In this document: positions 42,979 to 57,396 of the stretch, piece by piece
How the letters are laid out: each line of letters starts with the position of its first letter
Numbering within the stretch: the stretch's first letter is position 1
Assembly: GCA_030430575.1 (NCBI GenBank)
Contig: JAUIKF010000002.1
Coordinates: 124,001-188,000, forward strand
Source: Bacteroidia bacterium
GTDB taxonomy: Bacteria > Bacteroidota > Bacteroidia > J057
Reading direction: 5' to 3'
Length of the DNA stretch: 64,000 nt
The notes under the pieces: generated by a model
Told to the model about the DNA's origin: nothing
The model's database searches: none
What the model saw: the letters and a program-made list of their open reading frames with translations, nothing else
Program-made: the position numbers and the translations under genes

Positions 42979-43581
42979 ATGATAACGCATTACCCCAATT
43001 CATATCGAATCAACATTCGCGAGGGGGTATTGCGTATCCTGAGCACATTGCTCCAGCTCGATGGCAAATGTGACCTCCAAACGCTTTGCCTGATCCTCAA
43101 AGGAGATGATAATGTGGCGCCAGACTTTACCGGTGTAGCTACCTATGGTGAGTTCGCCCATTATCATCACGAGCGAATCTACCACCTGACCAATTATCTT
43201 CTCAACCACAACTATCTCAAGTCCGAGTGTAACCATTTTGGTTGTTTGGTTGTGAGTGAGAAGGGCCTAGCATTCTATGAGATGCCCTCCGATCTGATCG
43301 TACGCACACAAGAGTTGAAAACCAGCCCTTATGACAATGCGCTTCGCGCACAACTTTGTGACTTACGAGAAGAACTATGCGAAACAGAAAGCCTGCCCAC
43401 TTTTAGGATTTTTACAGATTACGTGATCCAACGAGTGGTGCAGGACAGGCCCGCCAACCTAGAACAACTTCAGACAATCCCAGGCATCGGTGCTTTCAAA
43501 GCACAGAAGTATGGAGAAAGAATTTTACGACTGATTCAAAATGTCGCGCTAACCGCGAAAACGCCACTAGCCGGCTTGTAA
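42979..43581 (+). CDS. Stand-alone RQC-HRDC protein (RecQ C-terminus without helicase)
   Basis: 200 residues. Residues 1-105 resemble the RQC winged-helix domain of RecQ (REGVLRILSTLLQLDGKCDL, LTNYLLNHNYLKSE), and about 118-197 form an HRDC domain (LRAQLCDLREELCETESLPTFRIF, LEQLQTIPGIGAFKAQKYG). The helicase domains and zinc-binding cysteines are absent. The ATG at 42979 is well placed and the upstream gap has no remnant of a helicase, so this is a complete small gene rather than the end of a broken recQ. It may bind branched DNA or act with a helicase encoded elsewhere. The gene is followed by a structured region and a terminator. Confidence 0.85.
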   Translation: MITHYPNSYRINIREGVLRILSTLLQLDGKCDLQTLCLILKGDDNVAPDFTGVATYGEFAHYHHERIYHLTNYLLNHNYLKSECNHFGCLVVSEKGLAFYEMPSDLIVRTQELKTSPYDNALRAQLCDLREELCETESLPTFRIFTDYVIQRVVQDRPANLEQLQTIPGIGAFKAQKYGERILRLIQNVALTAKTPLAGL

Positions 43582-43938: not shown

Positions 43939-46900
43939 TTACCTGATCACAGTAATAGATCCACTCCGCTCAACAGTCTTCCCTAAGAAAGTGGTTCCCT
44001 TCACGTGAAAGACATACACGCCTTCTGGGACGGAAACGCCGTTTTTCCTCCCATCCCAACGGAAGTTGGGATCTGTGGAGGCAAAGACAATCCTGCCCCA
44101 GCGGTCAAAAATCTGAATATCTAGGCGTTCATATCCACCGTTTGGCAAGTAGAAGAAGTCATTAGTTCCATCATCATTGGGGCTGAATGCGTTGGGGAAG
44201 AAGATTTCATCTTCCCATACATCGATAAAGCTATACGTCAATGAGTCTGGGCAGCCTATTTCATTATCTACGACCAAGGTCACATCATACTGTCCAGGTG
44301 TATTATAGGTATGAGTAGGACTCATAGTAGAATCTGTAAACCCATCCCCAAATCGCCAGAAGGAACGTGTTGTCCCTGGGCTTAGGTTATTGAAGTTCAC
44401 TTCTAATGGATAGAAGCCTTCCAATGGTGTTGGCTCAAAGCGCGCCCTTGGAAGGTCTTCCGCCACCAATACTGTCGTATAGAAGGTGTCACTTGGGCAT
44501 CCATCCTTGTCAAATACAAGTGCCCAATAAGTCGTAGTTGTAGTTGGGTTTACCGTAATCAATTCCGTTTCCTGGCCTGTACTCCACAGGCGACTGACAC
44601 CGCCTTCTACAATCAGATCAATCAACTGGAACTTACAGATGCTGTCCAAGGTAGGACCGGATACATCTGGTTTAGGAATGACATTTACTTTGACTTTGTC
44701 AGAATTGACACAGAGATTAGAGTCTGTTCCTACGACGGTATAGAGTTGATCTACTACAGGAGAGGCAAATGGCGTCGCACTGAAGGGATCATCTAATGTA
44801 GCTGCTGGTGTCCATATATATCCGCTAGCGCCAGTAGCCCTTAAGGAAGCAGCAAAGCCTTCACATATGGTCGTATCTTCGCTTGCCTCCACACGTGGTA
44901 GTGGATTAACGGTCACAAATATGGTATCCTTATCCTGACAAAGATTGGCATCTGTCACAGTGACAAAGAATGGACGAGAGAACCTTGTCCAGGTGATTGG
45001 GTCAGGCGTATCTGCCCCTAATACTGCCCCCGAAGGCGACCATTGGTAACGAATGCCGCCACTCGCCATCAACTGAAGCGTGTCACCGATACATATAGCA
45101 GTGTCTTCTCCTGCATATGCCGTTGGTAAGGGCCAAACAACTACTACGACGGAGTCTCTAGCGATGCACCCTTTGTCGTCTTGTACGGTCACCCAGAAAG
45201 TAGTTGTGTCTTGCGGATTGGCAAAAGGACTTTTAACGGTCGTGCTACTAAGTGCTGGATCTGCATCCCAGGTATAACGTACCCCTCCAGAAGCTACGAG
45301 CCTGATTTGTTCCAATAAACAAATCGCCGTGTCCCTTCCTGCATCTGCAAGTGGAAGCGGATTTACCGTAATCTTCACCGTATCGCGATCTTGACAGCCA
45401 TTCCCATCTGTGACCAGTAGGCCATAGTCAGTAGTGACTATTGGGAAAGCAATAGGATTGGCGATGGTGTCATCTGTGAGCGTAGCTGCATTGTCCCAAA
45501 GGAATGTAGCCGCGCCGCGCCCATTCAACTGAATACTATCCCCAATACAAATCTCTTGATCTCTACCTGCATTGGCAATCGGCAATGGATTAACCGTAAT
45601 TTCCACCGAATCTACTTCTATACAGCCCAAAGTATCTGTAACCGCCAAATAGTAGGTAGTGGTGACAGAAGGTTTAGCAAATGGATTAAAAATGTTGGGA
45701 TCACTTAAGGTCGGATCAGGTAACCAATTATATATTACCCCGCCACTTGCCATCAACTGAATAGAATCCTCAAAACAAATAGGCGCATCTGGCCCTGCAT
45801 CGGCTGGTGGTAATGGATAAACATCCACCGTCACAGAATCTCGCGCAAAGCAGCTATTTGTATCAATGACCGTCACATAATAAGTCGTCGTATCCAATGG
45901 CATTGCTATAGGATTCGCAATATTCAAGTTGCTCAGGCTTGTATCTATATCCCAGACATATTGTGAACCGCCAGAAGCTTGAAGCATGGTCGATAGCCCA
46001 ATACAAATTCCTGTATCTTGTCCCGCATCAGGGATCGGGAGTAAATTGACCGTCAATTCCATCGTGTCTGTGTCTACGCATCCATTGGTATCCGTCACGA
46101 GCAGACCATAGGTAGTAGAGACGATGGGGAATGCTAACGGATCGGCCAAAGTGTCAAAATTCAACGTTGCCGCATTGTCCCAAAGGAAAAATGATGCACC
46201 AGCTCCATTTAATTGCGTCGTATCTCCAATACAAATAGCTTGATCCGCACCAGCATCCGCTATCGGAAGAGGATGGACATCCACCGTAACAGAATCTCGC
46301 CACATACAGCCATTGGCACCTGTGACAGTGACGTAATAAGTCGTCGTATCAATAGGCGAGGCAATAGGATTGGAAATAATTAAGGAACTCAGCGTCGTAT
46401 CTGCATCCCATACATAGGAAACACCTCCACCAGCTTGCAGCATGGTAGAAAGGCCAAAACAAACACTTGTATCAGGTCCAGCATCTGCTGGCGGAGCGGG
46501 CAAGACGTTAACCACGACATTGGCCGTATCGGTACAGCCGCTTGGATCAAGCACCGTGACGATAAACGTCGTCGTAGTATCTGGCCGTGCCAATGGATTG
46601 GCAATGGTCGAGTCACTCAGTGGCTGGCCTGGCGTCCAGGCGTAGCCTATACCGCCACCAGATGTCAATTGAATGGTATCTCCAAAGCAAATTGTTCCAC
46701 CAGGCCCACTGGTTGCATACATCGTCGACACAGTCACTGAGTCGATGTTTTGACACGTATTGGTGTCAGTCACCAAGACATAATAGGTGGTCGTATCTGT
46801 AGGGTTGGCAATCGGATTGGCAATGTTTGGATTGCTGAGGCTATCGGTGGGGAACCATTGGTAAATGACCCCCCCAGAAGCTTGTAGTTGGACCCCTGGC

Positions 46901-49900
46901 TCACCACACTTGGTGATGTCTGGGCCTGCGTCAGCGGGGGGCAAGAGGTTTACGGTAATGGTCACCGAATCCCGCTCGTGGCAGGTATTGGTATCAGTTA
47001 CCGTCACATAATAGGTCGTGGTTCCTAAGGGATTAGCAGTAGGATTGGGGATGTTCAATGCGCTAAGCGAAGGATTAGGGTCCCATTGGTATGAAATCCC
47101 GCCACTGGCATTTAGCATCAAACTATCAAAAATACACAAGGGCGCATCTGGCCCTGCATCGGCAGGAGGTAATGCATGTACTGTCAGCACCATGGTATCT
47201 GTATCTACACAGCCTACGCTGTCCGTCACCGTCACGACATAGGTCGTGGTGGTAGGCGGCGAAGCCATCGGGTTCGCGATAGATGGATTGGAAAGTCCAA
47301 TCGTGGGTGCCCAACTATAGCTCACCCCTCCCCCCGCTTGCAGCTGGGTGCTATCATTGAAACAGATCTCTTGATCGGCCCCTGCCTCTGGTGCGATGGT
47401 ATAGACTAAAACGGAAGCCGTATCAAAACATCCCCAAACAGCTGTAATCGTAGCCGTATACAAGGTCGTTGTATCTGGGAAAGCATTCGGATTAGCAATT
47501 AACGGATCACTCAACCCGACTGTAGGACTCCAGCTATAAGAAATTCCCCCAGCAGCCGAGATGGGAACGACCGTATTAGGACAAGCAAAGGTATCATTGC
47601 TCACGGACACAATCGGCCTCAACCGCACTTCCAAGCCAATGGAGTCATAATTGACACACATATTGCTATCGATGACCGTCACATAATACCAGGTAGAATC
47701 TACGAGGTTGGGCGTGAGGTTTCGCGGAGTAGCGATTGGGTTGAAGATATTTAAAGCCGACAACGTAGTGTCTGCTTGCCAGATATAGGTGTTGCCACCA
47801 GTAGCAGTGAGTTGTGTGGCGCCATTGTCGCAGACATAAGGATCAGGGTTGGAGACAGAAGTCACAGGCAGCGGATTCACCGTAAGGCGCATGGTGTCTG
47901 TATCCAAACAACCTGTTGTATCGACCACGGTCACGACAAAATCTGTCGTATCTATCGGAAAGGCAATTGGGTTGGCAATATTTGCATTAGTCAGGACAGT
48001 GGCATTGGCCCAGAGGTAGGCGACGCCGCCAGCCGCTTGCAGCTGAATGCTATCATAAATACAGATCGCCATGTCTGGCCCTGCATCAGCGTACATCGTC
48101 CGCACATGGATAGAATCCCTATTCACACAAGCATTCGTATCTGTGATGGTCACATAATACATGGTCGAAGAATCGGGATTCGCGACGGGATCAGAAATAT
48201 TGGGATTGCTCAGCCCCAAAGTAGGCGTCCAGCTATAGGTAACGCCACCAGTAGCATTTAACGGAACCCCAATATCTCCGCATTTTGCCGTATCATTCCC
48301 TGCATTTACAATTGGCAATAAATGTACAATCACATCTACAGAGTCTGTATCCATACATGTATTACCATCCGTGACAGTCACATAATAGCGGGTAGTATCT
48401 GTAGGGAAAACTGTGGGGTTGCTGGTGTTTCCATTGATAATACTTGGCAAATTAGACCACTGATAAGAAGTACCACCAGTAGCAAAAAGCCCAATCGTAT
48501 CACCTATACAAATAGCCGTATCTGCATGTGTTGTAATGACTGGCAGTGGATTGACAAATACATTCACTGTATCAGGGTCGGAACAGCCTGAAGCGTGGAA
48601 TATATTGACGATATACTGAGTTGTGGTGGTTGGGAAAGCTCGTGGCGAAGCTGCCGTTGCACTGCTCAGGCTCGCCCCATTATTCCAACTATATGAAACG
48701 CCACCAAACGCTGCCAACTGCACCGTATCAAAAATGCAGATCGTTTGGTCACCGATGACACTTCCATTAAACACATCCACCAATACTTGATCGGCATTTA
48801 CACAAGCATTGGTGTCAACCCCCACAACGGTGTAAGTGGTACTCACCAAAGGATTTGCAATCGGATTGGCGATATTTGTCGCACTCAGTCCTGTTGCTGG
48901 CGACCAGCTATAGGTAGCTGCTCCAGTCGCGGTGAGTTGTACCCCTTGGTGCTCACAGTTGGTTGTATCATTGCCAGCAAAGACGTTGGGTAATGGATTC
49001 ACCACAACGGTCGCGGTGTCTGTATTGACACAAGTATTGGTGTCAGTGACTGTGACGACATAGTCTGTCGTGACGGTAGGTGTCGCCGTAGGGCTGGCGG
49101 TATTGGGGTTGACCAGACCTGTCGTAGGCGACCAGGAATAATTCACGCCGCCAGTAGCTCGCAAGGTAAAGCCATCTCCTATACAGATCGCGGTATCTGG
49201 CAAGGCCGTGACGATCGGCAACGGATTGACATTCACTGTCACCGTATCTGGATCAGCACAGCCAGAAGCGTGGAAGATTTGAACAATATAAGTCGTCGTT
49301 GTGGTAGGAAAAGCAAAAGGATTAGCAGCGGCGGTATCAGTCAGACTTGCTCCATTATTCCAACTATAAGCCACCCCTGTACCCGCCACGAGTTGCACAC
49401 TGTCAAAAATACAGATCGTTTGATCGGCACTTACATTTCCATTGAATACATCTACCATTACCTGATCTGCATTTACACACCCATTTGTATCCACACCTAC
49501 AACAGTATAAGTCGTGGATACTAGCGGATTAGCGATAGGATTAGCAATATTCGTCGCACTTAAGCCTGTCGCAGGCGACCAGCTATAGACGCTTGCACCT
49601 GTCGCAGTGAGTTGTACGCCTTGGTACTCACAGTTTGTGGTGTCGTTGCCTGCAAAGACATTCGGCAATGCATTCACAGTGACTGTGACAGTATCCGTGT
49701 CAACGCAAGAATTGGCATCTGTGACTGTAACAACATAGGTAGTGGTGACCGTAGGGTTCGCCTGCGGATTCTGAAGGGTAGAGTCATTGAGACCTGCAGC
49801 AGGTGCCCAACTATAGGTAGTGCCGCCAGTTGCTTTTAGGGTAAAAGCATCTCCTATACAAATGGCTGTATCCGGTGTAATCGTGATTGTAGGGAGTGGA

Positions 49901-52212
49901 TTGACAAAAATCTGCACTGAATCAAAGTCCACGCAGCTATTGACATCTGTGATGGTCACGACAAAAGTGGTAGAATCATGAGGGAAGGCCAGTGGATTTG
50001 GCGACATGCTATTGCTCAGGCTGATGCCATTGCTCCAAGCATAAGTGACCCCTCCCGAGGAAGATAGCTGAACCGTGTCAAAATCGCAGATGGTGACAGG
50101 CGCCATAGGTGCCACTGTGATGTTCATGGTTTCGATGCGCACACTATCTTCCGACACACAGTTGTTGGCATCTGTGACAACAACCGTATAGGTGGTTGTA
50201 TCTGTGGGAAAAGCGCGCGGATTGGCAACATTCGTTGCACTTAAACCCAAGGCAGGTGACCACGCGTATTGAGTTCCTCCCGTAGCCAATAGCTGCAGGG
50301 TATCTCGTGGGCAGACAAAGGTGTCTGGCGTAATCGTGACAACCGGCAATGGATTTACATTCACCGTAGTCATCAAGGTCTGCACACAGCCAAAATTGTC
50401 CGTATTGGCAACGGTATAGGTCGTTGTCGTATCAGGACGCGCCATGACGATAGAACTGGTCGTGTCACTCAGACCAGCCGATGGCTGCCAGAGCCGTGTC
50501 ACGGGGCCGCCCGTAGCGCGAAGCTGCACACTATCTCCGAAACAAATCGTGCTTACGGCGGGCTGTACATTCACATTGGGTAGGGGGCGGACTGTGAGAG
50601 TCACAGTGTCATAGGATGTTCGTTGCTGTGGACAGATCGCGTTTGTGTCTCTTCCAGCAACGACAAACTGGAAGGTCTGACCAGCGTCCGCACAAGTAGG
50701 CGTCCAGCAGACATTGCCCGAAATCGGGCTTCCCGTGGTAGAAGAAAAAGTAGCTGCATTTCCCCCTGTAAATGGTCCATTTACCCAAAAAGCACGCAGC
50801 GAATCCAAGGTATCCGCATCTGTGACATCAAAGGTATAGCAGAAATTCTGATTGGGGTTTACCGTAAAGGAAGGCCCTGTACCCCCTCCTGGCAGGGTGT
50901 GAGTAATGACAGGTTCATTTGCCCCCCCAACAATGACTACCACCGTATCAAAGACTAAGTTTAGCCCAAAACAATTAGACAAATTATTTCCCCCAACAAT
51001 CATCGGAATCGTATCGCCTGCATAATTACATCCAGGTACCCAACAAACATTAGCGAGCACGGAATCCACGCCAGGGTTTGGGCCAATGGTCGTCAGCGTC
51101 GCAAGTGGTGCCGGTAAGGACCCGCCAATCCCAAAGATGGCACTCACAGGGAATAGTTGAACCGTATCCGTACTCAGTCCCCCCGCAATAGAGACATCAT
51201 AACAGACGGTATCTAAGGGGTTGACCCTTACGGTGTCGAGGGCCCCAAATGTATTGGTTGGGACAGGTGGAAGGCCCTGATTGGTACAGTTGATGATGTT
51301 GATTTGAAAATCTCGCTGATTGGTACTCAGAAGAACCCCATTTCGATATTCGTCTACACATATCGCAAAGACATATTGCCCAGAAAAGGCTGGGGTAATG
51401 GTTAGCAAGCCCGAAAATCGGTCTATACTGAACATATTATTCCCAAATGGATTCAGGTAGGAAAAGGGCGTAACGTAAGTGATATTGTTATAGGGAGGAG
51501 GTCCCATAGGGTTGCCACCGCCAGGTCCACCCACTCGTACAGTAGCACGTCCAAACCCCGTTGTAGCTCCTAGACCGCTGCCATTTAATCCTGAATAGGG
51601 ATTACAAATTCGATATACCAGTGAATCCCCGTTAGTGTCTGTAGCAGAATGGTCAAAGTTGAAAGTTTGGTTGGCACATAGAAATTGAGGTGCCAAATTG
51701 TTAAAAGTAGGAGTTGAGTTGCAGCCTGTGGCTTCGTCAGTGCCAGGCACATGCGCAGTCACAGTGACCCCCTGATTGAGGGCGATATTACTCACCGAAT
51801 TATTCCGACAACAGCGTGCCCAGCCAATATCATATCCTCCTACCCTTGGGGAGAGGACCACTGTCCCAATATATTCTTTATACTCTACACAAAGGGTATA
51901 TGGGGATGCTGTACATGCTGCCCAGTTTGGGGGAATAATCTGCGTAGCAGAAGCCCCTGGTTCAGCGATGTTGAAGGTGGTTTGGAGCTGTCCAGTACTT
52001 CCTCTGAACACAAAAACAGTAATAGGGTCATCAAACCCCGCTCCGCCTCCTTGACAATCTCGATAGAGGACAATCCTCACTTCGTGCAGGCCTGTAGTCT
52101 GATTCAGGCACCGATAGGTGATGTCTGCCCCTACAATGTGAGCAGCTTGGAGTGGTTTACAAAAAATAAATAAAGACCCTAAAATTAAAGCTAAACGTAA
52201 AATGTGTTTCAT
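43939..52212 (-). CDS. Giant Ig-repeat surface protein with T9SS type B (gliding) tail
   Basis: 2757 residues from MKHILRLAL; an upstream in-frame ATG at 52272 gives a poorer signal peptide. After cleavage (LQAAH) comes an N-terminal AAHIVGADITYRC domain common in huge Saprospirales proteins, then cadherin/Ig-like regions to about residue 540. Next are 27 tandem Ig-like repeats of about 76 residues (about 541-2587; pattern D..IC.GD..QL.ATGG..Y.W.P..GLS....NP.A.P..TT.Y.V.VTD...C...D), a PKD domain (about 2588-2670; WRFGDGFTDS) and the gliding-type C-terminal domain (IFFPNAFSPNDDGTNDFF, IQIFDRWG, WDGRKNG, VPEGVYVFHV). Likely exported by T9SS and surface-attached, serving adhesion or gliding. 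Repeats 1-18 are grouped in threes. Confidence 0.93.
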   Translation of the reverse strand: MKHILRLALILGSLFIFCKPLQAAHIVGADITYRCLNQTTGLHEVRIVLYRDCQGGGAGFDDPITVFVFRGSTGQLQTTFNIAEPGASATQIIPPNWAACTASPYTLCVEYKEYIGTVVLSPRVGGYDIGWARCCRNNSVSNIALNQGVTVTAHVPGTDEATGCNSTPTFNNLAPQFLCANQTFNFDHSATDTNGDSLVYRICNPYSGLNGSGLGATTGFGRATVRVGGPGGGNPMGPPPYNNITYVTPFSYLNPFGNNMFSIDRFSGLLTITPAFSGQYVFAICVDEYRNGVLLSTNQRDFQINIINCTNQGLPPVPTNTFGALDTVRVNPLDTVCYDVSIAGGLSTDTVQLFPVSAIFGIGGSLPAPLATLTTIGPNPGVDSVLANVCWVPGCNYAGDTIPMIVGGNNLSNCFGLNLVFDTVVVIVGGANEPVITHTLPGGGTGPSFTVNPNQNFCYTFDVTDADTLDSLRAFWVNGPFTGGNAATFSSTTGSPISGNVCWTPTCADAGQTFQFVVAGRDTNAICPQQRTSYDTVTLTVRPLPNVNVQPAVSTICFGDSVQLRATGGPVTRLWQPSAGLSDTTSSIVMARPDTTTTYTVANTDNFGCVQTLMTTVNVNPLPVVTITPDTFVCPRDTLQLLATGGTQYAWSPALGLSATNVANPRAFPTDTTTYTVVVTDANNCVSEDSVRIETMNITVAPMAPVTICDFDTVQLSSSGGVTYAWSNGISLSNSMSPNPLAFPHDSTTFVVTITDVNSCVDFDSVQIFVNPLPTITITPDTAICIGDAFTLKATGGTTYSWAPAAGLNDSTLQNPQANPTVTTTYVVTVTDANSCVDTDTVTVTVNALPNVFAGNDTTNCEYQGVQLTATGASVYSWSPATGLSATNIANPIANPLVSTTYTVVGVDTNGCVNADQVMVDVFNGNVSADQTICIFDSVQLVAGTGVAYSWNNGASLTDTAAANPFAFPTTTTTYIVQIFHASGCADPDTVTVNVNPLPIVTALPDTAICIGDGFTLRATGGVNYSWSPTTGLVNPNTASPTATPTVTTDYVVTVTDTNTCVNTDTATVVVNPLPNVFAGNDTTNCEHQGVQLTATGAATYSWSPATGLSATNIANPIANPLVSTTYTVVGVDTNACVNADQVLVDVFNGSVIGDQTICIFDTVQLAAFGGVSYSWNNGASLSSATAASPRAFPTTTTQYIVNIFHASGCSDPDTVNVFVNPLPVITTHADTAICIGDTIGLFATGGTSYQWSNLPSIINGNTSNPTVFPTDTTRYYVTVTDGNTCMDTDSVDVIVHLLPIVNAGNDTAKCGDIGVPLNATGGVTYSWTPTLGLSNPNISDPVANPDSSTMYYVTITDTNACVNRDSIHVRTMYADAGPDMAICIYDSIQLQAAGGVAYLWANATVLTNANIANPIAFPIDTTDFVVTVVDTTGCLDTDTMRLTVNPLPVTSVSNPDPYVCDNGATQLTATGGNTYIWQADTTLSALNIFNPIATPRNLTPNLVDSTWYYVTVIDSNMCVNYDSIGLEVRLRPIVSVSNDTFACPNTVVPISAAGGISYSWSPTVGLSDPLIANPNAFPDTTTLYTATITAVWGCFDTASVLVYTIAPEAGADQEICFNDSTQLQAGGGVSYSWAPTIGLSNPSIANPMASPPTTTTYVVTVTDSVGCVDTDTMVLTVHALPPADAGPDAPLCIFDSLMLNASGGISYQWDPNPSLSALNIPNPTANPLGTTTYYVTVTDTNTCHERDSVTITVNLLPPADAGPDITKCGEPGVQLQASGGVIYQWFPTDSLSNPNIANPIANPTDTTTYYVLVTDTNTCQNIDSVTVSTMYATSGPGGTICFGDTIQLTSGGGIGYAWTPGQPLSDSTIANPLARPDTTTTFIVTVLDPSGCTDTANVVVNVLPAPPADAGPDTSVCFGLSTMLQAGGGVSYVWDADTTLSSLIISNPIASPIDTTTYYVTVTGANGCMWRDSVTVDVHPLPIADAGADQAICIGDTTQLNGAGASFFLWDNAATLNFDTLADPLAFPIVSTTYGLLVTDTNGCVDTDTMELTVNLLPIPDAGQDTGICIGLSTMLQASGGSQYVWDIDTSLSNLNIANPIAMPLDTTTYYVTVIDTNSCFARDSVTVDVYPLPPADAGPDAPICFEDSIQLMASGGVIYNWLPDPTLSDPNIFNPFAKPSVTTTYYLAVTDTLGCIEVDSVEITVNPLPIANAGRDQEICIGDSIQLNGRGAATFLWDNAATLTDDTIANPIAFPIVTTDYGLLVTDGNGCQDRDTVKITVNPLPLADAGRDTAICLLEQIRLVASGGVRYTWDADPALSSTTVKSPFANPQDTTTFWVTVQDDKGCIARDSVVVVVWPLPTAYAGEDTAICIGDTLQLMASGGIRYQWSPSGAVLGADTPDPITWTRFSRPFFVTVTDANLCQDKDTIFVTVNPLPRVEASEDTTICEGFAASLRATGASGYIWTPAATLDDPFSATPFASPVVDQLYTVVGTDSNLCVNSDKVKVNVIPKPDVSGPTLDSICKFQLIDLIVEGGVSRLWSTGQETELITVNPTTTTTYWALVFDKDGCPSDTFYTTVLVAEDLPRARFEPTPLEGFYPLEVNFNNLSPGTTRSFWRFGDGFTDSTMSPTHTYNTPGQYDVTLVVDNEIGCPDSLTYSFIDVWEDEIFFPNAFSPNDDGTNDFFYLPNGGYERLDIQIFDRWGRIVFASTDPNFRWDGRKNGVSVPEGVYVFHVKGTTFLGKTVERSGSITVIR

Positions 52213-52452
52213 TATCATGGAATATAATTGGAAAACGCACGAAAATCGATCCTCGAAAACTACCAAAATCAAGGAGTATTACCAATAAATTAAACGTTGC
52301 TTTGGCAAGTGTAGTACCGAAAAAGTGGACTTTAGGCGAGGCTTTGGGCAGAATGGCAAAATACTAACACAGATTAGCATTTTCGAAAAACGCACAATAT
52401 ACTTAATCCTTTGCCCTTCTTTGCAGCTTTGCTACGAACGGCCAAAAATCTG

Positions 52453-53103
52453 CTATGAATGGGAAAATGCTTCAGGCGCTAGCGTAAAGAAGTCTTCTTG
52501 GGCGGTAGGATGAATGCGGACGAGTCCAGCACGAACCAAGGTCACCAGCAAGCCCGAAGCGCGGCGTTTAGAGATCTGTAACTGTCGCCGCGTTTCTTCT
52601 AACGTAGTCTTGGAATGCTCGTCAAGCAACCTGAGGACTTCCCGTTCTTTTTCGCCATACGTAATTTTTACCCCTCGTTCTCGCCGAGAATGATGCATGA
52701 GGCTCACCATTTCACGACTTGCTTGCACAGTCATGTCACGCACTCTGACATAAGCTCGTTTCGTATTTTCTTGGACGCGGTGTGGTTTTTGGAGGCTTTC
52801 ATCTACCTCAAATACCAGAACACTTCTTCGAGAAGTTACAGCCACATGAGAGATAGTTACTGGAAGGGGGGGGGAAATATTTCGTTGTATACTTTGGCGT
52901 AGCGCATATTCGTCTTCTACAGGGCATTTACTCCCATAGATAGAGCCGTCATCATCTACGCCGAGCAGGAGGGTTCCCCCTCCCGTATTAGCGAAGGCGA
53001 CAAGTTCGCGGATGATTTTTTCCGGATGATTTGCTTTGCGTTTAAATTCGAGATGGAGGTGCTCTCCTGCTCGAACCAGGCGCCTGAGATCGTTCAAATC
53101 CAT
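52453..53103 (-). CDS. AlbA_2 (Schlafen-like) DNA-binding regulator with winged helix
   Basis: 216 residues from MDLNDLRRL; an ATG 30 bp further upstream is possible. An N-terminal AlbA_2/divergent AAA-4 domain (LHLEFKRKA, RELVAFANTGGGTLLLGVDDDGSIYG, FEVDESLQKPH, AYVRVRDMTVQA) is followed by a winged-helix segment (EREVLRLLDEHSKTTLEETR, GLLVTLVRAGLVRIH). Such proteins are predicted transcriptional regulators or nucleic-acid-binding proteins. Its conserved FANTGGG is intact. It diverges from the T9SS propeller gene by 102 bp and could regulate it, but no operator is seen. Confidence 0.85.
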   Translation of the reverse strand: MDLNDLRRLVRAGEHLHLEFKRKANHPEKIIRELVAFANTGGGTLLLGVDDDGSIYGSKCPVEDEYALRQSIQRNISPPLPVTISHVAVTSRRSVLVFEVDESLQKPHRVQENTKRAYVRVRDMTVQASREMVSLMHHSRRERGVKITYGEKEREVLRLLDEHSKTTLEETRRQLQISKRRASGLLVTLVRAGLVRIHPTAQEDFFTLAPEAFSHS

Positions 53104-53149
53104 AAGTGTTCGATCTTTGCTAAAGATACACATTTAGGGCGGGATTTGT

Positions 53150-54504: not shown

Positions 54505-57222
54505 TCATCTTCCCGATTGCTTGATCAGGTCTTTCAGGGTTTCGTTGAACCCCTTTTCACCAGCTAAGGCCTCTAAATCGAGATGCATACGATATTGCCA
54601 GTAGTGCTTGGGGTTAGCAGGCACATTGATCCGTTCAACATGGGGATTTTCATTGCGCAAATCACCGTCGATCGCCAATAAATCTTGAAGTGGAAAGATG
54701 GCCCACATAGCTGGAGAGGCCAAGTGCTGTTCCAATACTTCCTGACAAACCCAAGGTTCGCAGTAGAAAGGCGCGTCTCCTGGATGTCCCAATATTTCAT
54801 TGTAAAAGCGCTGAGTGACAGCCCTGTCCTCTTCCCACCAGCCACGGATCGTGGACATATCATGTGAGCTAGGGCTCACGACAGAGAGATAAGGCGCATC
54901 CGCTGGGTGGCCAAAATGACGGCCCGTTTCCTTGGGCATGCGCTGGATCTCAAGGCTCAACATGCCCAACTCTTCCATGACACCTGGCACGCAGTCGGGG
55001 ACCATGCCCAGGTCTTCTCCACACACCAGCATACTGGTGGCAGTTGTGATTTCGGGGAGCTTGGTCATCGCTTCTGACCGCCAAAATTCCTCATGGCGGT
55101 GATAGAAATAGTCCAGATATAAGGCATTGAGTCGCTCGCGTGATCCTGGGTCGAGGTCTTTGAAGGAACTCGTTTGTTGAATAGAGATGCGGGGGTTAAA
55201 AGCCTGTCCATTGGAAAGCGGAGCTTCCAAAAGAAGTACATTTGTGATCAGTTCAAATAGCCCGCTTTTGAGTCGATAATGGATGTCCTTGGTTTCCTGA
55301 CTTGCATCCTCTCCTAGTTTCAGGAGCTGCTCAACCTGGCGTTGGGTGGTGACATGGGATTTCAGGTGAAAGTGGCCGGGTTGGTATTCCTCCAAGAATT
55401 CTCCTTTCACCCATTCTGTCATTTCACCAAACAATCCTTCCAATAAGTGCTCCCGAATATACGGTCGGCACAGGCGGTCATAGTCAAACCAGCCCAGGCG
55501 CTGTTTGATCTCCTCGACACTGAGCGGCAAGGCAGGGTTAAAATGTCCTAACAGCCCGTCTATCGCATGGTAAGGGATTTCCCAAATCCGAAAAAAGCCC
55601 AGGATATGATCTATCCGATACGTGTCGAAGTAAGTCGCCATTTGGCTGAGTCGTGCCCGCCACCAGCTATAACCGTCTTTGGCCATTTCATGCCAATTAT
55701 AGGTGGGGAATCCCCAATTTTGCCCTGCGACGGCAAAGGCGTCTGGCGGTGCGCCTGCCTGGGCATTCATATTGTAGAGGTGGGGAGCCACCCACGCGTC
55801 TACACTATAGCGATAGATACCGATGGGGATATCCCCTTTGAAAACAATGCCTTTGCTACGCGCATATTCAGCTACCTCAAGCAATTGGGTATGGAGGTGG
55901 TATTGGACAAATAAGTGAATGGCAAATTCATCGTAGGTGTCGTTTTCAGGAGAAACGAGCGACGAAATTCGCGCTTCATCATACAAGCTATCAGCTCCCC
56001 ATTTGCTGAAGTCTGGGGTTTCATAGCGGTCGCGAAATGCACAGAATGCGGCATAAGGCAAGAGCCAATCCCTATTTTCTTGAATAAATTTTTGGAACGA
56101 CTTATCTGCTAAAATCTCCTTTTGTTCTTGCGCATAATATAGTCGGATATAGCGCCATTTCGCTTGCATAACCGCTTCATGATCCACGACTGCCAATGCG
56201 TTGAGCCGTTTACGTTCGGCATCAAATTCCTTTTGAAGGGACTTGTCAGTCAATTTGCCCATTTGTTCCACATTCAAGAAAAGCGGATTCAGGGCAAAAA
56301 CGGAAATGGCTGCATAAGGATAACAATCCTCCCAGGTATGGTTCGCCGTGGTATCGTTGATCGGTAAAATCTGGACGAGCTTCAGCTCTGTCTGTACGGC
56401 CCAGTCAATCAAAGCCCGAAGGTCATTGAACTCCCCCGTGCCCATCCCCTGCTGACTTCGCAGGGAAAAAACGGGAATGGCCACGCCCGTTCCCCGCCAA
56501 TTCTCATTGGGATAGCGGAACTGCTCATCTGTATGCACATCTAGCAGGGCTTGCCCATTCAGAGAAATCGGCGACAGCACCCGGTCATCCCCCGCTTCCC
56601 ACCCAATGACACGCTTTTCCGCTTTGTTGTACAGGGCATATTTATACGCGACAGGCGCTGATGGATCTTTGAGCTTGACATTCGCCGCAAAAAGAGGGTA
56701 GTCCTTTTCACTCATAACAACGGCCTTCTCTTCTGCCCAGTCGCCCAAAGCCGGGTCACTCCCCAGTACACACACCGTCTGGTCTGGTGCCAAGCGAGGT
56801 ACAGCGATTTGAAATCGGTGATGTGGGGGTTTTGGGTGGCGCTGGGGCCCTTTTTTTCCATCACGACGCATCAGTACACCTGTAAAGGCCGAGCTAAACC
56901 AAGCGTTTTCAGGCTTGGCATTTTCACGCCAAGCGTCATTTAATCGAAGGGTTTCGTATTTGTCTGCTTTGACAGCAAATTGACGGTTAGCTCCCCATTC
57001 CCACAAAATTCGGCCATCAGGCTCTACCAGAACGTATTTATATGCCACAGAAAATGCCTTTTCACTGGGCAGGTCCACTGAGAGTTCCCATATCCCATCA
57101 TTTTGATAATGCATCTCAGGCGCATCATCCACGTTCCATTGACCAAGTGCAAGGTGATTTCCGACAACTTTGAGGCGCTGGCCCCATTGTGTATGGTAAT
57201 GTATTCGAAAGCAAACTAACAT
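54505..57222 (-). CDS. malQ: 4-alpha-glucanotransferase with tandem CBM20 (DPE2-like)
   Basis: 905 residues from MLVCFRIHYHTQWG; an ATG at 57366 would add 48 unrelated residues before the first CBM20. Two N-terminal starch-binding CBM20 modules (about 1-95 and 120-225; VVGNHLALGQWN, VLGSDPALGDWAEEKA) precede a GH77 domain. Catalytic residues are visible: nucleophile D538 in YRIDHILG, acid/base E736 in VCGEDLG and D788 in SSHDMST. The enzyme transfers glucan chains between maltodextrins, in cytoplasmic glycogen or maltose metabolism. The CBM20-CBM20-GH77 order is that of plant DPE2 and some Bacteroidota enzymes. It stands alone, without other glycogen genes. Confidence 0.93.
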   Translation of the reverse strand: MLVCFRIHYHTQWGQRLKVVGNHLALGQWNVDDAPEMHYQNDGIWELSVDLPSEKAFSVAYKYVLVEPDGRILWEWGANRQFAVKADKYETLRLNDAWRENAKPENAWFSSAFTGVLMRRDGKKGPQRHPKPPHHRFQIAVPRLAPDQTVCVLGSDPALGDWAEEKAVVMSEKDYPLFAANVKLKDPSAPVAYKYALYNKAEKRVIGWEAGDDRVLSPISLNGQALLDVHTDEQFRYPNENWRGTGVAIPVFSLRSQQGMGTGEFNDLRALIDWAVQTELKLVQILPINDTTANHTWEDCYPYAAISVFALNPLFLNVEQMGKLTDKSLQKEFDAERKRLNALAVVDHEAVMQAKWRYIRLYYAQEQKEILADKSFQKFIQENRDWLLPYAAFCAFRDRYETPDFSKWGADSLYDEARISSLVSPENDTYDEFAIHLFVQYHLHTQLLEVAEYARSKGIVFKGDIPIGIYRYSVDAWVAPHLYNMNAQAGAPPDAFAVAGQNWGFPTYNWHEMAKDGYSWWRARLSQMATYFDTYRIDHILGFFRIWEIPYHAIDGLLGHFNPALPLSVEEIKQRLGWFDYDRLCRPYIREHLLEGLFGEMTEWVKGEFLEEYQPGHFHLKSHVTTQRQVEQLLKLGEDASQETKDIHYRLKSGLFELITNVLLLEAPLSNGQAFNPRISIQQTSSFKDLDPGSRERLNALYLDYFYHRHEEFWRSEAMTKLPEITTATSMLVCGEDLGMVPDCVPGVMEELGMLSLEIQRMPKETGRHFGHPADAPYLSVVSPSSHDMSTIRGWWEEDRAVTQRFYNEILGHPGDAPFYCEPWVCQEVLEQHLASPAMWAIFPLQDLLAIDGDLRNENPHVERINVPANPKHYWQYRMHLDLEALAGEKGFNETLKDLIKQSGR

Positions 57223-57396
57223 AGAGAGGGCGACTTGTAAAGTTGATACAAGGCCCAAAGTTAGGAAGAATTGAGGGAAAACGTAGGAACTAATTTTGAA
57301 TGAAGGAATAGGAATTTTTGAATAAAAGAATGGGTTCCAGTCTTTTATCATTTCCAATAGTTCCATTTATTTTTCAGATTTCCCCTAACCCTTACG

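Follow-up and report, generated by a model that had tools for sequence, protein, structure and literature searches.

What is the unit from which a very long bacterial surface protein is built? Bacterial surface proteins with many Ig-like domains are common, and the usual view of them is of a string of uniform beads. In a 64,000-nucleotide stretch of DNA from a Bacteroidia bacterium (the window, to which all positions below refer), a giant gene on the minus strand encodes a chain of 27 Ig-like repeats (r1-27), and the question is whether this chain is a plain string of single domains or is organized in a higher-order unit.

The open frame spans 43939-52272 and encodes 2777 amino acids from the first TTG (52272). 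The likely start is an ATG at 52212, which gives a gene at 43939..52212 and a surface protein of about 2757 amino acids. All features of the gene described here lie on the same minus strand. The N-terminus, MKHILRLALILGSLFIFCKPLQA, was judged by eye to be a signal-peptide-like stretch. It is followed by a module of about 517 amino acids (50593..52143) that is also present in other long proteins of the type IX secretion system (T9SS) in the same bacterial family; these first 517 residues past the signal had no match to a known family. The repeats belong to Ig_7 (PF19081), with a score of 234 bits against the curated Pfam cut-off of 27.3. They are followed by a PKD domain (44236..44454), located by domain search, and by a CHU_C domain, the T9SS type B C-terminal sorting domain (43954..44199), which was recognized by both Pfam and NCBIfam (PF13585, 60.6 bits with a cut-off of 27; TIGR04131, 48.5 bits with a cut-off of 35). 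The presence of the T9SS in the genome was judged from SprA alone, which scored 2190 bits against a cut-off of 200. From its sequence, the gene product is predicted to be a large Ig_7 protein that reaches the cell surface through the type IX secretion system, type B. No ligand or binding domain was identified in the giant protein.

A Schlafen AlbA_2 gene (52453-53133) adjoins the giant gene; it is also a neighbour in the sister species (58% identity, L089) and was not seen in the fetched stretches of other genera. Positions 42979-43581 of the window encode a 200-amino-acid protein in which RQC and HRDC are the only parts of RecQ and the helicase domain is absent, and positions 54505-57366 encode a 953-amino-acid 4-alpha-glucanotransferase, two stretches of which match its models below the curated cut-offs. 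The whole genome G000 yielded 138 FG-GAP_3 matches, pointing to many further repeat proteins there.

Each of the 27 repeats contains exactly two cysteines, which we infer to form a disulfide. The distance from Cys to Cys, here called the core, is 51 residues in 24 of the 27 repeats, and it is 52 in r1, 58 in r13 and 46 in r27. The junction between one core and the next is 25 residues long, with the exceptions of 22 before r6, r9, r12, r15 and r18, 24 before r3 and 26 before r13. A 22-residue junction is found before the third domain in five of the six triads of r1-18 (24 in the first triad) and nowhere in r19-27. By simple arithmetic, the chance of five 22s falling at a strict step of three among 26 junctions is about 14/65780. 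The three residues missing at the junction between domains 2 and 3 are the PLP hinge, so that VNPLPxxDAGPD becomes VRTMYADAGPD. Without inserts, the three-domain unit amounts to 3 x 51 + 25 + 25 + 22 = 225 residues.

The original prediction of 27 repeats, the first 18 of which form six triads, is borne out by these junction lengths and by the core identities given below, and its unit size of about 225 residues matches the sum of cores and junctions. It was also right that the third domain follows without the PLP/LLP linker (22 versus 25 residues), but the third domain itself is not shorter, its core being 51 residues as elsewhere. The variant second domain with C.Y/HQGVQL or CG..GV.L is present in r5, r8, r11 and r17 and does not hold for r2 and r14. 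The positions 43939-52212 assigned to r1-18 are those of the whole gene; the 18 repeats lie at about 46510-50592.

Triad 1 (r1-3, 49909..50592) carries the 24-residue junction between r2 and r3 (50089..50157) in place of 22. Triad 2 (r4-6, 49234..49908) and its sister copy triad 3 (r7-9, 48559..49233) form a pair known from this species only, placed between what are T1 and T2 in the relatives, with 22-residue junctions at r5-r6 (49414..49476, PLP absent) and r8-r9 (48739..48801). Triad 4 (r10-12, 47881..48558), with the 22-residue junction RTM-YADAGPD at r11-r12 (48064..48126), groups with T2 of other genera. Triad 5 (r13-15, 47185..47880; 22-residue junction r14-r15 at 47365..47427) is a landmark triad, marked by the 26-residue junction and the 58-residue first core, and is found once per gene in all relatives. 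In triad 6 (r16-18, 46510..47184) the 22-residue junction r17-r18 reads STM-YATSGP (46690..46752). Behind it lie two variant three-domain units, unit A (r19-21, 45826..46509), whose junctions are all 25, and its sister unit B (r22-24, 45142..45825), and the terminal three domains (r25-27, 44455..45141), the last core of which is 46-47 residues in each complete relative.

The cores carry a period of three as well. Core identity is 55% at lag 3 versus 44% at lags 1 and 2. Shuffling of labels within triads gives a p value of about 0.001 for the lag-3 signal, and 0.005-0.009 when the near-copy r7-9 is left out. In the r19-27 region lag 3 stands at 0.55, versus 0.43 for lag 1 and 0.48 for lag 2, a signal that in the tail units comes largely from r20 and r23 and depends on a register chosen by the analyst. 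The original prediction had looked to a repeat tree for a grouping of positions 1, 2 and 3. In a tree of the 27 cores, which with 63 columns has too few, positions 2 and 3 cluster beyond chance, position 1 does not and no position forms a clade; this outcome is ambiguous.

A search with the N-terminal region gave matches in all 13 genomes of the bacterial family, several of the relatives being draft genomes, and whole frames were then read. The grammar is shared by five complete orthologous arrays, two complete paralogous arrays and a partial sixth orthologue, and the 22-residue junction at every third place recurs in eight proteins. The orthologues belong to the sister species (MAG JAUIGE01, Bacteroidia bacterium Co_bin.136) and to four further genera; the orthologues and paralogues that carry the junction grammar are G009a, G007, G008, G012, G000b, G009b and G011. 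The complete orthologous arrays contain 27 domains (the window), 21 (second species of the genus) and 18, 15 and 18 (three other genera), all of them multiples of three. The paralogues have 10 repeats, which is not divisible by three. In G007, G008 and the paralogues, core similarity within the gene shows no excess at lag 3; it has faded there, and the pattern in these proteins rests on junctions, position residues and orthology.

The landmark triad delimits the grammar further. When all 7 landmark-triad rows were aligned, no stretch was sufficiently conserved to serve for a pattern scan. A pattern scan based on a two-row alignment returned the sister species and one weak match only. With a landmark-triad profile, E values <1e-100 were obtained solely in six genomes from five genera of this family, and the present gene combines the 26-residue junction and the 58-residue first core with a profile E<1e-100. 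Among 395 genomes drawn from the class, 391 had nothing below 1e-60, and none outside the family passed 1e-60. A single bacterial family accounts for every case found of the strict 25-25-22 grammar combined with the 58-core landmark triad.

Other repeat proteins were met in the course of this comparison. A second family of T9SS proteins within this bacterial family (L071, L074 and L085, in three genera) carries a single 22-residue junction (EVFEVFTLEDTFVC), which lies between cores of 56 and 52 residues; given its different linker sequence, the hinge deletion may have had more than one origin. L056 is a 2444-amino-acid protein with a different regular repeat of four cysteines (16-28-14-22), and L047 is a tandem pair of paralogues of the N-terminal family in G010 (1779 and 1782 amino acids).

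Domain position is recognizable across genera. Leave-one-genus-out profiles built from cores alone recovered the position in 65 of 84 cases (77%), compared with 34%, and at most 54%, when labels were shuffled within triads. K or N precedes the first Cys in 21 of 32 domains at position 2 versus 1 of 64 elsewhere, and G follows the first Cys in 16 of 32 versus 0 of 64. No domain tree unites the position 1 domains in a clade. The third domain of triad 4 falls in a supported clade with third domains of all four genera.

A tree was built from 32 triads together with four tail units to show how the copies are related. One branch (94/97) has all eight landmark triads on the same side, the T2 triads of different genera group together, and r16-18 pairs with r10-12 of the sister species. 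Triads r4-6 and r7-9 are sisters present in this species only. Units r19-21 and r22-24 find their partners among units of the sister species and are sisters to one another (100/100). The tail had been described as pairs or singles, and the gene as having grown by triads first and singles later. The short junction is indeed absent from r19-27, yet r19-24 is a duplicated three-domain unit too, which speaks against such an order. Growth by triads of about 225 residues draws its support mainly from the relatives, through array sizes, cross-genus orthology and position profiles.

Although r5 and r8 are 91% identical in protein, their synonymous sites are near saturation, as they are in nearly all repeat comparisons. 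The repeat copies are old and held by selection, and no duplication in the array is recent. Recent tandem duplication or slippage was rejected: TRF reported no array, no exact DNA match within the array exceeds 23 bases, and the synonymous sites have almost reached saturation. Nor is there support for a deliberate diversification of codons among the repeats, with same-codon counts near random (3576 observed versus 3428 expected). The triad unit itself predates the split of the genera and is thus much older than the species studied here, which makes it impossible to read the sequence of growth steps from this array; the duplication breakpoints could fall at any cyclic shift of the unit.

AlphaFold2 models of r16-19 (triad 6 together with r19) and r4-7 have a mean pLDDT of 91.9, with a pTM of only 0.61-0.64. 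In both models there are 2 non-strand residues across the 2-3 junction versus 5 across the 1-2 and 3-1' junctions. The nearest solved folds to the modelled domains, all eight, were fragments of GhpA. The shaft is an array of two-cysteine Ig_7 domains in a conserved 225-residue three-domain super-repeat. Domains 1-2 and 3-1' are linked by a 25-residue junction bearing a PLP-type hinge, and domains 2-3 by a 22-residue junction without the three hinge residues. Since these residues are missing, the last strand of domain 2 is predicted to continue with hardly a break into the first strand of domain 3. We propose that the 2-3 pairs would then be stiff, and that the shaft would act as a segmented stalk or adhesin with stiff pairs between proline hinges. 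The unit would have arisen before the genera split, after which array length changed by whole units (15, 18, 18, 21 and 27 domains). Units may be gained and lost whole because selection keeps the rhythm of pair and hinge. Taken as a whole, a segmented stalk with an old three-domain unit, a hinge deletion and whole-unit length change is in our judgement a probable explanation.

Could the array have grown by duplication of single domains, with the look of a period of three produced by one block duplication from r4-6 to r7-9? The strongest lag-3 similarity does come from r4-9, and lag 3 is absent in the cores of some relatives. However, the signal survives the removal of r7-9, eight proteins show the 22-residue junction at every third position, the repeat number of each complete orthologous array is divisible by three and triads have orthologues in other genera, which makes single-domain growth very improbable. 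An artefact of assembly, in which repeats were mis-assembled or collapsed, is scarcely credible: the genome is a draft of 127 contigs, but near-identical DNA copies are absent from the array, the reading frame is uninterrupted and the units stand in the same order in the independent assembly of the sister species.

A weightier alternative, which we still consider unlikely, is that position-specific selection keeps the period of three, for example through oligomer contacts at every third domain in a GhpA-like multimer, and that the hinge deletion is a by-product. The near saturation of synonymous sites even between r5 and r8 is in keeping with such selection, as is the persistence of position residues across genera while core similarity faded, and GhpA, the nearest solved fold, is a heptamer (PMC13319060). 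Nevertheless, the genera differ in repeat number, which means that the shaft is not a fixed structure; whole-unit duplication is seen both in the r4-9 insertion and in the tail units that are sisters; and no sign of oligomerisation was seen in this analysis.

GhpA, the grappling-hook protein of Aureispira (PDB 9flp, 9flx and others), is nearest among solved structures in both sequence and fold. It has a long shaft of related Ig-like domains, and a C-terminal stretch matches the T9SS sorting region. GhpA is 5898 amino acids long versus 2777 in the open frame here, and on size the present protein was not counted as a member. Identity is 21-28% and TM about 0.5 over four domains, in a comparison made at the level of the domains. 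The hook and the heptamer are features of GhpA, whereas the giant protein is known here from sequence and models. GhpA was rejected as a whole-protein homologue, since the match is piecewise over many Ig domains and indicates domain-family kinship only. Bacteroidota repeat proteins of the Ig_7/CHU_C T9SS type B kind share the same Pfam domains and secretion signal, but the 25-25-22 grammar with the landmark triad is confined to one bacterial family. The giant Ig-like adhesin of Mobiluncus mulieris is likewise a very long Ig-like chain with stabilising covalent links; it differs in belonging to other bacteria and in its cross-links (ester and isopeptide), and the part of that report drawn on here notes no three-domain unit (PMC10619420).

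The closest likeness in design is to the A-band of titin, with its FnIII and Ig domains and its zero-length and DPI/NPF linkers: both chains are repeats of repeats, with linker types at fixed places in the unit. The proposed history of the titin A-band super-repeat is that a proline linker of three residues was lost at one position, giving a tight pair, before the unit multiplied (PMC10665226), and A164-A165 and A168-A169 are tight Ig pairs joined by a continuous strand (PMC3277889). Titin, however, belongs to eukaryotic muscle and is built of FnIII and I-set Ig domains, whereas here the chain is a bacterial T9SS protein of two-cysteine Ig_7 domains; Pfam found Ig_7 and PKD in the giant protein and no FnIII or I-set. 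The resemblance is one of design, not of kinship.

Tentatively, the giant protein may be a bacterial counterpart of the titin super-repeats, a surface filament whose mechanical unit consists of three Ig domains with the hinge deleted at a constant position; this unit would be retained across genera as filaments lengthen or shorten by whole units. In place of uniform beads, five genera share a conserved higher-order unit in which the hinge deletion has a fixed place, and copy number shifts by whole units. If the stiffness reading is true, bacteria and animals would have independently reached the same design for a long chain, and the natural versions with 15, 18, 21 and 27 domains would allow a direct test of what hinge spacing does.
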